Below are positions 14,316 to 53,515 of a stretch of 64,000 bases of DNA, piece by piece. Source of the stretch: Brachyspira hyodysenteriae ATCC 27164. Its GTDB lineage: Bacteria > Spirochaetota > Brachyspiria > Brachyspirales > Brachyspiraceae. Made by a program: the position numbers and the translations under genes. Location of the stretch: the NCBI RefSeq assembly GCF_001676785.2, contig NZ_CP015910.2, positions 620,001 to 684,000 on the forward strand. The letters are read 5' to 3'. The notes under the pieces are model-generated. The model was given only the letters and a program-made list of their open reading frames with translations. It had not been told where the DNA came from and did not search any database. The number at the start of each line of letters is the position of its first letter. Position 1 is the stretch's first letter.

Positions 14316-15602
14316 ATGATTAATACTATTTTTTCTCGTAGGAATATTATACTAGTTGCAGTATTGTTGTATCTCTGTTTATATAAAAATTTATATTCTC
14401 AAAATAATCCTGCTAAACCGACATTTCAAGAATTTATGCAAAAATATTCTCAGTTTGATGAATATATAGAAAATGATATTGATTTTTTATCAAAACTTCC
14501 ATCAATACAAAGACTTTGGAATAATACATACAAGTATATAGAAAGTCTTGGTTCTAGTAATTGGCTTGCTATAATGAAGGATCCTTCTAAAATATACAGA
14601 TATACAGATAATAATGATGTTGCTTTTCTTTTGGGAGCTTCAAGTGGTTTGGCATATCTTTATGAAGGCAGTTTTGATAAGATGGATTCCATAATGTCTA
14701 AATTAAAAAGAAAAATAAATATAAATGTTACATCTGGAGACAATTATGGTATTATAATCCCTCTGCATTATCCTCTTGGAACTATAGGACTTAGTACATA
14801 TGTTAATTTTCAATTGCCTGATGAAAAAAATGATGGAATTGGGTATTGGCATGATATGCTTAATGCTATTGATCATATACCAATACCATACATACAATTA
14901 TCAACACAAATAAATTGCTGGACAGCTCCAATGTCAATAGGTCTTAGATTTGCATTTGCTCCTGGATTTAGAGAATTATACAGACCATTTATAGAGGATA
15001 TTGAAGTAGATTCAATTGCATACCATGCTGGGTTAGATTTGAAATTTTTTGTTTATAGGGATAAATACTTTTTTGTAGATACTCGTGCGGATTTTAATTT
15101 TGACATAGGTGAAATTAATTTAAATATAAAAAATAAAAAATTCTTTTTTGAAGTTCCTATAGAGAATGCAGTTAATAGTGGTGTTTTGTTTAATTCGAGT
15201 ACATACATGGGTGGTAAATGGACGTCTTTTTCATTAACTCCAAAAATAGTAGGCGGATTTAAATTTAAAGAAAAAGTACCTTATATAGATTATTTTGCTA
15301 TATATGGTATATTAGGTGTTGATTTAATATATGGTTTTTATCAGGGAGGATATAATATAAACGTAGGAGATATGTATTTAATATCACCAAATAATAAAAA
15401 TGATCCGAATTATGTTATTAAAACTTCTCATCAAGATCAGGATTCAAGCAGCGGACAATATTTTGCATATGATATAAGGTTGGGATTAAATATTGATATT
15501 TTTTATCAGTCATTATCTATTGAATATGCTTTTTTATCAAAAAGTTTTTCGATAATGTTTATGCCTTTTGTGTATAGATTTGCATCTGAGCCGAAAATAT
15601 AG
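14316..15602 (+). CDS. Predicted outer-membrane beta-barrel protein, cassette copy 1
   Basis: A 428-residue protein with a signal peptide (cleavage near LYSQ, residue 29). The mature part is rich in aromatic and alternating hydrophobic residues, with strand-like blocks such as GIIIPLHYPLGTIGLSTYV, CWTAPMSIGLRFAF, DLKFFVYRDKYFFVDTRAD and KVPYIDYFAIYGILGVDLIY, and it ends in SIMFMPFVYRFASEPKI. This indicates a surface or outer-membrane barrel. It is a clear paralogue of the minus-strand gene at 17407-18660, with those blocks nearly identical and variable stretches between. An LRR lipoprotein gene follows 12 bases downstream. No function is known. Confidence 0.8.
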   Translation: MINTIFSRRNIILVAVLLYLCLYKNLYSQNNPAKPTFQEFMQKYSQFDEYIENDIDFLSKLPSIQRLWNNTYKYIESLGSSNWLAIMKDPSKIYRYTDNNDVAFLLGASSGLAYLYEGSFDKMDSIMSKLKRKININVTSGDNYGIIIPLHYPLGTIGLSTYVNFQLPDEKNDGIGYWHDMLNAIDHIPIPYIQLSTQINCWTAPMSIGLRFAFAPGFRELYRPFIEDIEVDSIAYHAGLDLKFFVYRDKYFFVDTRADFNFDIGEINLNIKNKKFFFEVPIENAVNSGVLFNSSTYMGGKWTSFSLTPKIVGGFKFKEKVPYIDYFAIYGILGVDLIYGFYQGGYNINVGDMYLISPNNKNDPNYVIKTSHQDQDSSSGQYFAYDIRLGLNIDIFYQSLSIEYAFLSKSFSIMFMPFVYRFASEPKI

Positions 15603-17406: not shown

Positions 17407-18660
17407 TTATAATTTTGGTTCTCCAGCAAATCTATACACAAATGGTACAAACATAACTGAAAAACTTTTTGAAAATATAGCATATTCAAATGATAAAGAT
17501 TGGTAAAATATATCAATAGTTGCACCAACTCTTATATCATAACTGAAATAATTATCTTTTATTGATATTTTAGGCATACTTGTATTAAATTCATAAGTTT
17601 GATTATTAATATTTTCTGTAACAGTATTTATACCAAATTCAGAATCAGAATCTACAAAACTATATACTAAATCAACTCCAATAAATCCGTATATTGCAAA
17701 ATAATCTATATATGGAACTTTATCTCTTAATTTTAATCCTCCAACTAATTTTGGAGTTAAAGCAAAACTTATCCATTTACTTTTTATGTCGGCTGATGTT
17801 CCAAAGTATGCTCCTGTATATGTGCTGTTTGCGGAATTATGCATCTGAAATACATACCTATCATTCATAAAAGCCATATTGAATTTTCCATAATCAAAAT
17901 TGAAATCTGCTCTGGCATCAACAAAAAAATATTTATCTCTATAAATATAGAATTTTAAGTCCATACCGCCATGTAATCCGAATGTTTCTATTTTTGTATC
18001 TTTAACAAAAAGATTATAAAATTCGCTGTAACCTGGCATAAATGCAAATCTTAATCCTATGGACATAGGAGCTGTCCAGCAATTAATAGAACCAAAAACT
18101 TCAATATATGGAAATGGCACTTTATCTATAGAATTTATTAGTCTTGCAAAATCATTATCATAACTTAATGAAGATTTTGTATCTTCAAGCTGAAAATTTA
18201 AGTATGCTCCAATACCTACAGTACCTAATGGAAAATGTAAAGGAATTATTAATCCATAATTATCTCCTGAAGCAGCATTAAACTGTATTTTTCTTTTAAT
18301 TTTCTGTTCTATTGCATATCCAACTGACATATTAAAATTATAAATATCATATAAAAATTCGATACTTGACATCAAAAGTATTGTATTAGGAGATTCAGGA
18401 TATTTTTCTATTAATTTTGGATTGTTAAGTACATCTTTCCAAAATTGCGGATTTATATCTTCTATAAAGTTTTTGGCATTATTAAAAAAATTTATTATAT
18501 ATTCGTTATTAGAAATATAATCGATATAGCCTTGATTATATTTATTATTCATTTGAAAATATTTGGTTATAAATTGATTATATTCACTATTTATATTTTG
18601 TGAAAATACATAAGCACAATGTAAACCAAACAATATACAGATACGTAAAAAATATTTCAT
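17407..18660 (-). CDS. Predicted outer-membrane beta-barrel protein, cassette copy 2
   Basis: A 417-residue paralogue of the plus-strand barrel gene. Signal peptide with cleavage near VFSQ (residue 21). Conserved blocks: SGDNYGLIIPLHFPLGTVG, INCWTAPMSIGLRFAFMPGY, LKFYIYRDKYFFVDARADF, KVPYIDYFAIYGFIGVDLVY and SFSVMFVPFVYRFAGEPKL. The first about 120 residues and the loop regions have diverged much more. This pattern fits barrel strands held constant while exposed loops vary. First gene of the mirrored cassette. Confidence 0.8.
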   Translation of the reverse strand: MKYFLRICILFGLHCAYVFSQNINSEYNQFITKYFQMNNKYNQGYIDYISNNEYIINFFNNAKNFIEDINPQFWKDVLNNPKLIEKYPESPNTILLMSSIEFLYDIYNFNMSVGYAIEQKIKRKIQFNAASGDNYGLIIPLHFPLGTVGIGAYLNFQLEDTKSSLSYDNDFARLINSIDKVPFPYIEVFGSINCWTAPMSIGLRFAFMPGYSEFYNLFVKDTKIETFGLHGGMDLKFYIYRDKYFFVDARADFNFDYGKFNMAFMNDRYVFQMHNSANSTYTGAYFGTSADIKSKWISFALTPKLVGGLKLRDKVPYIDYFAIYGFIGVDLVYSFVDSDSEFGINTVTENINNQTYEFNTSMPKISIKDNYFSYDIRVGATIDIFYQSLSFEYAIFSKSFSVMFVPFVYRFAGEPKL

Positions 18661-31593: not shown

Positions 31594-31625
31594 AAAGAGT
31601 TTGAAATTTACATCTCAAACTCTTT
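31594..31625 (-). terminator. Intrinsic terminator of the GH2 gene
   Basis: An 11-bp perfect stem (31594-31604 with 31615-31625); on the minus strand it is followed by a seven-base T-run. It ends a roughly 200-base 3' untranslated region that contains three repeat hairpins. Confidence 0.8.
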
Positions 31626-31630
31626 CATTA

Positions 31631-31808
31631 TTAATAAAAATTGTTCGCTGATAGTGTCTGCCAAGTAAACTTAGCAGACGCTCACAATTTTTATTTTATT
31701 ATTAATAAAAATTGTTCGCTGATGGTGTCTGCCAGACGCTATCAATTTTTATTTTTTTATTATCAATAAAAATTGTTTACTGATAGTGTCTGCCAATTTT
31801 ATATTGAT
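31631..31808. repeat. Three tandem copies of a palindromic hairpin element
   Basis: A 33-base unit begins at 31631, 31702 and 31763 (core GTTCGCTGATAGTGTCTGCC). Copy 2 differs from copy 1 at one base, copy 3 at three. Each copy is followed by a complementary arm ending in CAATTTTTATT or similar, so each forms its own hairpin. The right arm of copy 3 overlaps the last codons and stop of the GH2 gene. The unit spacing is 71 and 61 bases. It looks like a REP- or MITE-like element array placed in a 3' untranslated region. Confidence 0.8.
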
Positions 31809-43789: not shown

Positions 43790-44155
43790 CTCTAATTCCC
43801 CGCCCATTATATTTGTTAATCTATTTTGTAATTATAACTTTTATTTTCTTTTTTATTTTATATAGATATTACAGCACCCGCCCTAGCTTTTATTAAATTT
43901 ACGGCTTTACAATTTTATATCTATTTAGTAGATACTAAAAATTTTGAGTTTGACAACAGAGGCACTTTATATATATGTTATCTACTTTTTTGTCGTATAC
44001 CTCACAGCTGGACTTTGTCAAATGCAGTTCTTTTGGTTCTTTTATACCAATAAAATAACTGGGGGTGTGGCACGTCTGTGTGCTTCGCAGGGCAAAGCCA
44101 CATATATAAAAATATAACTTTATTTTTTGACAAAGTATATTTGTTTAGGTATAAT
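43790..44155 (+). repeat. Interspersed repeat element, copy 1, with an outward promoter at its end
   Basis: This gene-free stretch stands out by several G+C-rich blocks (CCCCGCCC near 43798, CACCCGCCCT near 43875, and 44061-44100) in AT-rich DNA. Two blocks recur in inverted orientation at 53.1-53.2 kb: the 25-base block at 44069-44093 (23 of 25 matches) and a 30-base block at 44124-44153 (28 of 30) that contains a promoter. The spacing between the blocks is similar (30 and 33 bases). No coding frame is visible. It is therefore a mobile or amplified non-coding element. Confidence 0.7.
44127..44155 (+). promoter_or_regulatory. Perfect consensus promoter of pheA-aroK, lying in the repeat
   Basis: TTGACA (44127-44132) and TATAAT (44150-44155) are exactly 17 bases apart. 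It is the ideal promoter and lies 34 bases before the pheA start. The same sequence occurs in the inverted repeat copy at 53109-53137, so the promoter is part of the element. Confidence 0.8.
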
Positions 44156-44188
44156 CTTAAATATTAAAAACTATAAAAGGACATGACT

Positions 44189-45310
44189 ATGCTTAATGAT
44201 GAATTACAGGAATTAAGAAAAGATATTGATAGAATAGATAAGCAGATAGTAAATTTGATAGATGAAAGAATGAAAGTAAGTTTGAAAGTAGGGGAGACAA
44301 AAAAGAAATATAATGCTCCTATATTCGATCCAAAAAGGGAAAAAGAAGTTATAGCAAAAAAAATAGAATTGCTTGAAAATAAAGAATTATCAGGATTAAT
44401 TACTACTATTTATAATGATATAATGTATACATCAAAACAGCTTCAGAAACATTTGATTGATGAATATAATATTAAAGAAGATAAAAAAGATGATAATGAT
44501 AATATAAAATATGATGAAAAGATAGTGTATCAGGGCAGAGAGGGCGGAAACGGACATGAAGCTGCTTTAAAATTCTTCGGTGAGAATGCTAAACTTGTAA
44601 AGAAAGAACATTTTGATGATGTGCTTGAGAGTATAAGAAGCAGAGAATGTTATTACGGAGTTTTGCCTTTGGAAAATTCTTCTACAGGAATGGTTAATGA
44701 AGTTTTGGATATACTTGCAGATTATAACTGTAAAATAGTAGGAGAGGTTTATCTTCCTATAGAATACGGACTTATGTTAAAAAAAGGTACTAGTATAAAA
44801 GATATTAAAAAAGTTATATCTCATCATCAGGCTTTGAAGCAATGTTCTAATTTTATAAAAGAAAATAATTTTGAAGAGATAACAGCATCAAATACAGCAG
44901 AAGCAGCATTCATAGTTTCTAATGGAAATGATAAAGAATTAGCTTCAATTTCTAATAAGCATGCTTGTAAAATTTATGATTTGGAGATGCTTGAAGAAAA
45001 TATTGAGAATATTAAAGGAAATACAACTCGTTTTATTATAGTTGCTAATTATGACAATGCTTTAAAAAGCGGTAATAAGATGACTATAAGATTTTTGCTT
45101 CCTCATGAAAATGGAAGTTTGGCAGATTCTTTGAATAAATTAAAAAGTTTTAATTTAACTTCTATAGTAAGCCGTCCGCATGTTGAGAGAAAATGGCAGT
45201 ATTATTTTTATATTGATATGACAGGTGATTTTGAAAAAAGTAAAGAAGAATTTGAAGAGTTCAAAAACAGTGTTGAAAATTTAATTGTTTTAGGTGTGTA
45301 TAATGAATAA
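44189..45310 (+). CDS. pheA: Bifunctional chorismate mutase/prephenate dehydratase (P-protein)
   Basis: Turns chorismate into prephenate and then phenylpyruvate, the Phe branch. Residues 1-85 are an AroQ-type chorismate mutase (LRKDIDRIDKQIVNLIDERM), then the dehydratase (VYQGREGGNGHEAALKFFG, PLENSSTGMVNEVLD, GNTTRF) and a C-terminal ACT domain (VSRPHVERKWQYYFYID) for Phe feedback. An ATG at 44183 is too close to the AAAGG at 44176-44180; the ATG at 44189 has proper spacing and is chosen. aroK overlaps its end by 8 bases. Transcription comes from a repeat-borne promoter. Confidence 0.94.
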   Translation: MLNDELQELRKDIDRIDKQIVNLIDERMKVSLKVGETKKKYNAPIFDPKREKEVIAKKIELLENKELSGLITTIYNDIMYTSKQLQKHLIDEYNIKEDKKDDNDNIKYDEKIVYQGREGGNGHEAALKFFGENAKLVKKEHFDDVLESIRSRECYYGVLPLENSSTGMVNEVLDILADYNCKIVGEVYLPIEYGLMLKKGTSIKDIKKVISHHQALKQCSNFIKENNFEEITASNTAEAAFIVSNGNDKELASISNKHACKIYDLEMLEENIENIKGNTTRFIIVANYDNALKSGNKMTIRFLLPHENGSLADSLNKLKSFNLTSIVSRPHVERKWQYYFYIDMTGDFEKSKEEFEEFKNSVENLIVLGVYNE

Positions 45311-45830
45311 TATAAAAAATAATAAGATTATATTTATTGTAGGTTTACCAGGATGCGGAAAAAGTGCATTATCAAAAATGCTTGCCAAAAAATTAAATTA
45401 TGATTTGTACGATATGGATTCTTTTATAGAAAAAAAAGAGGGTAGGACTATAACAAATATTTTTGCTGATAATGGAGAGGCTTATTTTAGAAATATTGAA
45501 AGCGAAGTGCTTGAAGAATTAAGCAATTTAAATAATGCCGTTATATCTACAGGAGGCGGTATAGTTCTTGCTGAAAAAAACAGAAATATTATGAAAGATA
45601 AAGGATTAACTATTTTTATAGATAGAAGTCCTGATATTATACTTCAAAATATAGACCCTACAGAAAGACCGCTTCTTGCTAAGGATAAAAATAAATTATT
45701 AGAATTATCTAAACAGAGAGATAGTTTATACAGGGAATCAGCACATATTATATTCACTCATAATACTTGGGAAGATAATATTGATAATACTTTTCAAAAA
45801 TTTTATGAAAGTATTAAGAATTATATTTAA
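45303..45830 (+). CDS. aroK: Shikimate kinase
   Basis: Phosphorylates shikimate with ATP, fifth step of the aromatic pathway. P-loop GLPGCGKSALSK, the DMDSFIEKKEGRTI shikimate-binding segment with the Asp pair, the FRNIESEVLEEL block and STGGGIVL, and the lid with DPTERPLL. About 175 residues, typical. The frame starts at a GTG (45294), but the ATG at 45303 has AGG eight bases upstream and gives a normal N-terminus. It is translationally coupled to pheA. Confidence 0.94.
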   Translation: MNNIKNNKIIFIVGLPGCGKSALSKMLAKKLNYDLYDMDSFIEKKEGRTITNIFADNGEAYFRNIESEVLEELSNLNNAVISTGGGIVLAEKNRNIMKDKGLTIFIDRSPDIILQNIDPTERPLLAKDKNKLLELSKQRDSLYRESAHIIFTHNTWEDNIDNTFQKFYESIKNYI

Positions 45831-53017: not shown

Positions 53018-53025
53018 ATATAAAA

Positions 53026-53076
53026 AAATTATTGCATTTACTATTATAAAAATAATAAATGCAGTAATTTGTTATT
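53026..53076 (+). terminator. Terminator of the MATE gene
   Basis: AAATTATTGCATTTA (53026-53040) pairs with 53056-53070 with one G-T wobble, then T-rich sequence. Its right arm has the same core as the hairpin at 53453-53493. Confidence 0.7.
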
Positions 53077-53108: not shown

Positions 53109-53300
53109 TATATACCTAAACAATTATATTTTGTCAAAAATTATTTTCTTATTTTTATTATTAGTGGGGACTAGCCCTGCAAAGCACACAGTCGTGCCGC
53201 TCTGCGTACTTCGTACCCCCCAAGTTCTTTTGCGACTGAAGGAAGTGCCTGTGGTATTGCCGCATACGAAGTACGCCTGCGGCGAGAAGCAAAAGGGCTA
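53109..53300 (-). repeat. Interspersed repeat element, copy 2 (inverted), with promoter and G+C-rich hairpin
   Basis: In minus orientation this copy shares the 25-base block (53174-53198) and the 30-base promoter block (53111-53140) with copy 1 at 44 kb. On the minus strand TTGACA (53137-53132) and TATATA (53114-53109) are 17 bases apart, pointing toward the MATE gene end, so it would give antisense RNA. Upstream of this lies a G+C-rich region with GCGTACTTCGTAC (53204-53216) complementary to the arm near 53263-53275. No open frame. The gap 53018-53515 holds only this element and two terminators. Confidence 0.7.
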
Positions 53301-53452
53301 TATTTGAGCTTAAATTTAATAAATTATTTTACATGTAATACGATTTTAGTATGATTTAATATTAATTTTATACTTGCTCTTTTTGCAACTTTTTGCGGCG
53401 GGAAAAAGTTGAATAAAAAAATTAACAAACTTAAAAAAATTCAGTATATAAA

Positions 53453-53493
53453 AAATTACTGCATTTATATAGCTTTATAATATGCAGTAATTT
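53453..53493 (-). terminator. Terminator of the amidohydrolase gene
   Basis: AAATTACTGCAT (53453-53464) pairs with ATGCAGTAATTT (53482-53493). The sequence matches the arm of the MATE terminator at 53056-53070, so the two flanking hairpins are related. Confidence 0.7.
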
Positions 53494-53515
53494 ATTATTT
53501 AATTAATAAATAAAA

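Follow-up and report, generated by a model that had tools for sequence, protein, structure and literature searches.

The window analyzed here is a 64,000-nucleotide stretch of the genome of Brachyspira hyodysenteriae ATCC 27164 (contig NZ_CP015910.2, positions 620,001 to 684,000). It contains, on its forward strand, pheA (44183–45310), which encodes a 375-aa protein combining a type II chorismate mutase domain (PF01817) with a prephenate dehydratase domain (PF00800), and the overlapping aroK (45294–45830), which encodes a 178-aa shikimate kinase (PF01202). Upstream of pheA, in the same orientation, lies a 219-bp element, TACTAAAA...TTTAGGTA, whose limits (43933–44151) are defined by its two terminal repeats, by an orphaned half of the native pheA promoter at its left, and by comparison of filled and empty sites with six relatives; the original prediction had drawn the element too widely, at 43790–44155. 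The hexamer TTGACA (44127–44132, forward strand), which is part of the right terminal repeat of the element, is separated by 17 bp from a TATAAT hexamer (44150–44155, forward strand), exactly as predicted, and the start codon of pheA follows 27 bp past this −10 hexamer. A second copy of the element, 334 bp long and likewise bounded by both terminal repeats, occupies a convergent intergenic region on the reverse strand (53113–53446).

Two sequence blocks had originally drawn attention to this pair of copies, namely a 30-base block (44124–44153), which matches an inverted counterpart at 53111–53140 in 28 of 30 positions, and a G+C-rich 25-base block (44069–44093), which matches 53174–53198 in 23 of 25. 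Both similarities are far beyond chance: pattern searches of the 3,074,045-bp genome, from which all our genomic copy counts derive, yielded 51 matches to the 30-base block at up to 3 mismatches and 6 matches to the 25-mer, with none for the control in either case (a reversed control for the 30-base block). The opposite, left end of the element is matched 73 times at up to 3 mismatches, again with a reversed control of zero, and merging of left and right ends gives approximately 80 places in the genome. A search of 26 Brachyspira genomes for the right end (27-mer, at most 2 mismatches) gave between 0 and 279 copies per genome. The location of the two window copies, 9 kb apart and in inverted orientation, is what a local duplication within the window might produce; given tens of copies in the genome and in the genus against reversed controls of zero, we consider chance or local duplication refuted and its probability negligible.

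Alignment of the 51 places shows the 30-mer to be the right-hand end, conserved among copies, of a dispersed miniature element that is non-coding and strictly intergenic; this end is the element's right terminal inverted repeat. Complete copies, usually of about 140–390 bp, span TACTRAAAATTTTTAASTTTGTCAA to TTGACAAARTATADTTGTTTAGGTA, starting with TACTRAAAA and ending with TTTAGGTA. Read outward, either end consists of TTGACAAA, a divergent stretch, and TA; the terminal repeats are approximately 25 bp long, imperfect in the middle, and identical to each other only at TTGACAAA and the terminal GTA. At both ends TTGACA is placed 17 bp from the terminal TA, giving an outward TTGACA-17-TATA; the duplicated TA and the two target bases that follow it supply the remainder of the −10 hexamer. 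Therefore, insertion beside suitable bases would complete a sigma-70-type promoter. The right ends form TATATA in 57 of 72 cases and TATAAT in only two. The target duplication is TA, which is present on both flanks of 46 of the 52 complete copies, tandem copies have one target in common, and left-left as well as right-right variants exist. The family thus displays the features expected of a MITE, being short (complete copies mostly 140–390 bp), non-coding and dispersed over some 80 intergenic places, with terminal inverted repeats, a target duplication and empty sites at pheA and at other copies.

The G+C-rich block (44069–44093, forward strand) is an optional palindromic module that recurs in 6 places in the genome, and in the alignment of the 51 places it is one of several alternative palindromic modules occupying the same interior position. 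Because of this optional character, the 30-base and 25-base blocks are not generally linked, a correction to the original prediction. As an observation on its own, the interiors of the elements have a mosaic structure built of G+C-rich micro-palindromes, among them TACGAAGTA, GCGTAAGCACGC and CCTTCGG, in a genome of 27% G+C, and these micro-palindromes are swapped at the same hairpin-loop positions in 43933–44151, 53113–53446 and other copies. Both window copies fold better than shuffled sequences (z-scores of −2.7 and −2.6), and such hairpins with exchangeable loops might suggest that the repeats are small RNA genes or structured regulatory RNAs and not a mobile element. However, the promoter-like block is located at the end of the element and points out, so that it would not transcribe the element; moreover, there is no Rfam match, and the TA duplications, the empty sites and the ends held in common with a transposon all show mobility. 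As the sole explanation, the RNA reading is contradicted by these observations, and we regard it as highly improbable.

The nature of the parent element of this MITE is indicated by transposase remnants in two relatives. A search of the 26 genomes for the DDE_3 domain of the IS630 family gave a single match, in Brachyspira sp. G79 (G015, locus L198), where a degenerate stretch of about 1.05 kb lies between a left end (1 mismatch) and a right end (3 mismatches) of the repeat family; its C-terminal piece matches DDE_3 (E-value 1.3e-10) and its N-terminal piece weakly matches helix-turn-helix families. In G023 (locus L230), the N-terminal start of a related transposase is found beside a perfect left end and is cut by the contig edge; a multi-copy and possibly active IS630 element would be expected to interrupt an assembly in this way. 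No DDE_3 transposase was detected in the ATCC 27164 genome, and no intact transposase was seen in the DDE_3 search of the 26 genomes. The ends common to the MITE, the IS630-family relic and the L230 start lead us to view the repeat as an IS630-derived MITE; as judged from their sequences, these pieces fix the kind of parent element, not its present activity.

The history of the pheA site can be read from the relatives. In six element-free genomes (G023, G024, G004, G005, G006 and G021), the native pheA promoter has the form TTTACA-N17-TATAAT, which is also conserved in more distant genomes and is intact in genomes where other element copies lie further upstream of pheA. The filled site in the window reads TTTACA-N17-TA-GA, then the element, then TA-ATCTT, and comparison with the empty relatives indicates insertion inside the native −10 box accompanied by TA duplication. 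The right copy of the duplicated target is at 44152–44153, and the left copy (43931–43932), to judge from the empty sites and the rule prevailing in the family, is now GA through one substitution. The present −10 hexamer is accordingly a composite, to which the element contributes the first TA, the target duplication the second TA and the native promoter the final AT, and the native −35 hexamer TTTACA (43906–43911, forward strand) is orphaned approximately 240 bp upstream of the −10, as opposed to the 17 bp separating it from TATAAT in the element-free relatives. The same right junction is present in G025, G008 and G022, and the orphaned −35 still stands to the left of the element in G000, G025 and G008, the distance from the orphaned block to the −10 being 397 bases in G025 and 564 in G008, with substitutions in common. 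In G022, the right end is shared, whereas the left flank is not. Together, the common right junction and orphaned −35 suggest an insertion old enough to be shared, with the interior changed since; the variation of the interior at this site among relatives requires that internal turnover or nested insertion be assumed.

Thus, it appears very probable that the repeat is a non-autonomous MITE of a Brachyspira IS630-family transposon and that its insertion into the native −10 box created a predicted fusion promoter for pheA-aroK. Taken from genome comparison, the mobility, the target, the architecture of the junction and the replacement of the native −35 are all documented. The element landed in the TATAAT of the native pheA-aroK promoter, shifting TTTACA about 240 bp away and letting its own TTGACA take over at the same 17-bp spacing, while the last bases of the native −10 and everything downstream of them stayed in place. 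Under the proposed mechanism, transcription of pheA-aroK would then start at the same point as before, now from the fusion promoter, which is probably at least as strong as the former native one, and upstream control exerted via the old −35 region may have been lost. Hence the notion that the element donated its promoter to pheA-aroK holds in that an outward-facing promoter-like end lies exactly upstream of these genes, but only the −35 half was replaced and the existing −10 was re-used.

For 20 copies, the two flanks were joined and looked for in G025, G022 and G008. Clean empty sites for further copies support the TA duplication: one 309-bp copy is precisely absent from three genomes, and another from one. 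The clean empty sites include one seen in three genomes with little else changed and one whose target differs from TATATA. The copy at the latter target, located before a gene for an ankyrin-repeat-like lipoprotein, is the second promoter case. In relatives this gene has the promoter TTGACA-17-TATACT (TTGATA in one of them), and at the filled junction TTGACA-17-TATAAT is found seven bases further upstream; a −35 within the element with a −10 completed by the target was seen at this gene and at the pheA junction. Across the genome, however, right ends face the 3′ ends of genes (40 of 72) more often than gene starts (31). By type of intergenic region, 65 copies divide into 22 convergent, 7 divergent and 36 codirectional, compared to roughly 11, 23 and 31 expected from intergenic lengths (p ~5e-6, a rough value because the expectation comes from the 64-kb window only), and codirectional pairs reveal no clear orientation bias (right end toward the start in 21, away in 15). 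A bias of the copies toward facing genes was therefore rejected. The copies being depleted in divergent and enriched in convergent regions, promoter rebuilding is not a habit of this repeat family. Nevertheless, an ORF begins no more than 150 bp downstream of 21 right ends, and effects on other genes are therefore possible. Hexamers resembling a −35 occur at the right distance in the target flanks of 8 of 48 copies, compared to about 1.7% in controls; in nearly all of them, the copy had inserted at the promoter-like end of another copy, and general promoter targeting was rejected on this ground.

The original prediction took conservation of the promoter to imply selection. In the right end, conservation is 0.92 for the −35 hexamer and 0.90 for the spacer, and in the left end 0.94 and 0.93, respectively; because spacer and hexamer are equally conserved, the conservation of the promoter-like end is best attributed to its being a terminal inverted repeat, that is, to transposition, and selection on promoter function as read from conservation was rejected. 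The equal conservation in both terminal repeats, the avoidance of divergent regions and the majority of right ends that face gene 3′ ends would also be compatible with a wholly incidental likeness, in which TTGACAAA and the TA tip of the terminal repeat would serve to bind the transposase and the pheA junction would resemble a promoter by chance. At pheA, however, the new hexamers are perfect consensus at ideal spacing, the start codon lies 27 bp past the new −10, the native promoter is otherwise split, and a scan showed no further site near the gene with a strong likeness to a promoter; moreover, such an origin would not keep the promoter from working. We therefore hold the incidental reading to be quite improbable. 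Given that both ends set TTGACA exactly 17 bp from a TA that supplies the first two bases of a new −10, whereas their spacers have diverged, one could speculate that the terminal repeats are shaped such that an element disrupting a −10 box restores the promoter at the same time, a 'self-mending' insertion that would lower the element's own cost in promoter regions; we offer this as a tentative and rather unlikely idea.

The fusion promoter favored here for pheA-aroK has precedents. In the Correia elements, the so-called Black promoter consists of a −35 and a partial −10 in the element end, with insertion completing the −10 (PMC2649163), and the targets of these elements are reported to resemble TATAAT (PMC9330008). 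Like the CREE/NEMIS of Neisseria, the Brachyspira repeat is short, non-coding and intergenic; it has terminal inverted repeats and a base-paired interior, duplicates TA, occurs in tens to hundreds of copies and carries a −35 in its end that insertion supplements with a −10. In contrast, the genus and the sequence are unrelated, the size is about 140–390 bp as against 69–157 bp, the Brachyspira ends have only TTGACAAA and the tip in common, and a transposon relic with the same ends was found. The 26-bp repeat that defines the Neisseria elements was not recognized when the Brachyspira end was compared, by eye only, with the CREE motifs quoted in PMC2649163. By analogy, then, the Brachyspira element would work like the CREE Black promoter and is not a member of the CREE. 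The RUP of Streptococcus pneumoniae is likewise a MITE attributed to an IS630-family element via common ends and TA targets (PMC2229807), but it is 107 bp long and of different sequence, and promoter formation does not figure in the part of that description drawn on here. Fusion (hybrid) promoters with the −35 from an inserted element and the −10 from the target are also generated by insertion sequences (PMC9330008); in most of those cases a full insertion sequence activates a silent gene, whereas the non-autonomous Brachyspira element replaced half of an existing promoter. The first genome report in the genus listed no insertion sequences except a plasmid integrase (PMC2650404), and we found no description of the repeat in open-licence papers on Brachyspira. 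The MITE family is new, and the fusion-promoter mechanism is already known from the Correia elements. With some 80 places in this genome and up to 279 right ends elsewhere in the genus, the family is a sizeable source of genome change that has been overlooked. The pheA-aroK site, with a native promoter, empty and filled relatives, and one event that swaps the −35 only, is an unusually clear natural experiment and allows a direct test of the effect of a mobile element on the control of an amino-acid pathway.

The second window copy presents a different picture. It is situated between the 3′ ends of two genes and has nothing obvious to drive: its outward promoter-like end (53109–53137, reverse strand) faces the 3′ end of a MurJ-like gene and reads TTGACA-17-TATATA, so that of the two window copies only the one at pheA forms the TTGACA-17-TATAAT originally ascribed to both. 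This copy is missing at the same site in G025, G022, G004, G005 and G006. Similar terminator-like hairpins flank it on both sides (53020–53075 and 53450–53500; ttactgcattt...aaatgcagtaatt), and relatives without the element have one such hairpin only. Because the empty relatives also lack a flanking hairpin, the site does not offer a clean comparison of filled and empty states; either a duplication accompanied the arrival of the element, or recombination between the hairpins deleted the element.

Two further repeats in the window deserve mention. Long inverted arms of 113–194 nt with 72–80% complementarity connect 14700–15601 and 17408–18303 and probably represent related genes in opposite orientation. 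At 31617–31795, a 47-base unit occurs three times in direct orientation, with copies 85–100% alike and spaced by 61–71 bases.
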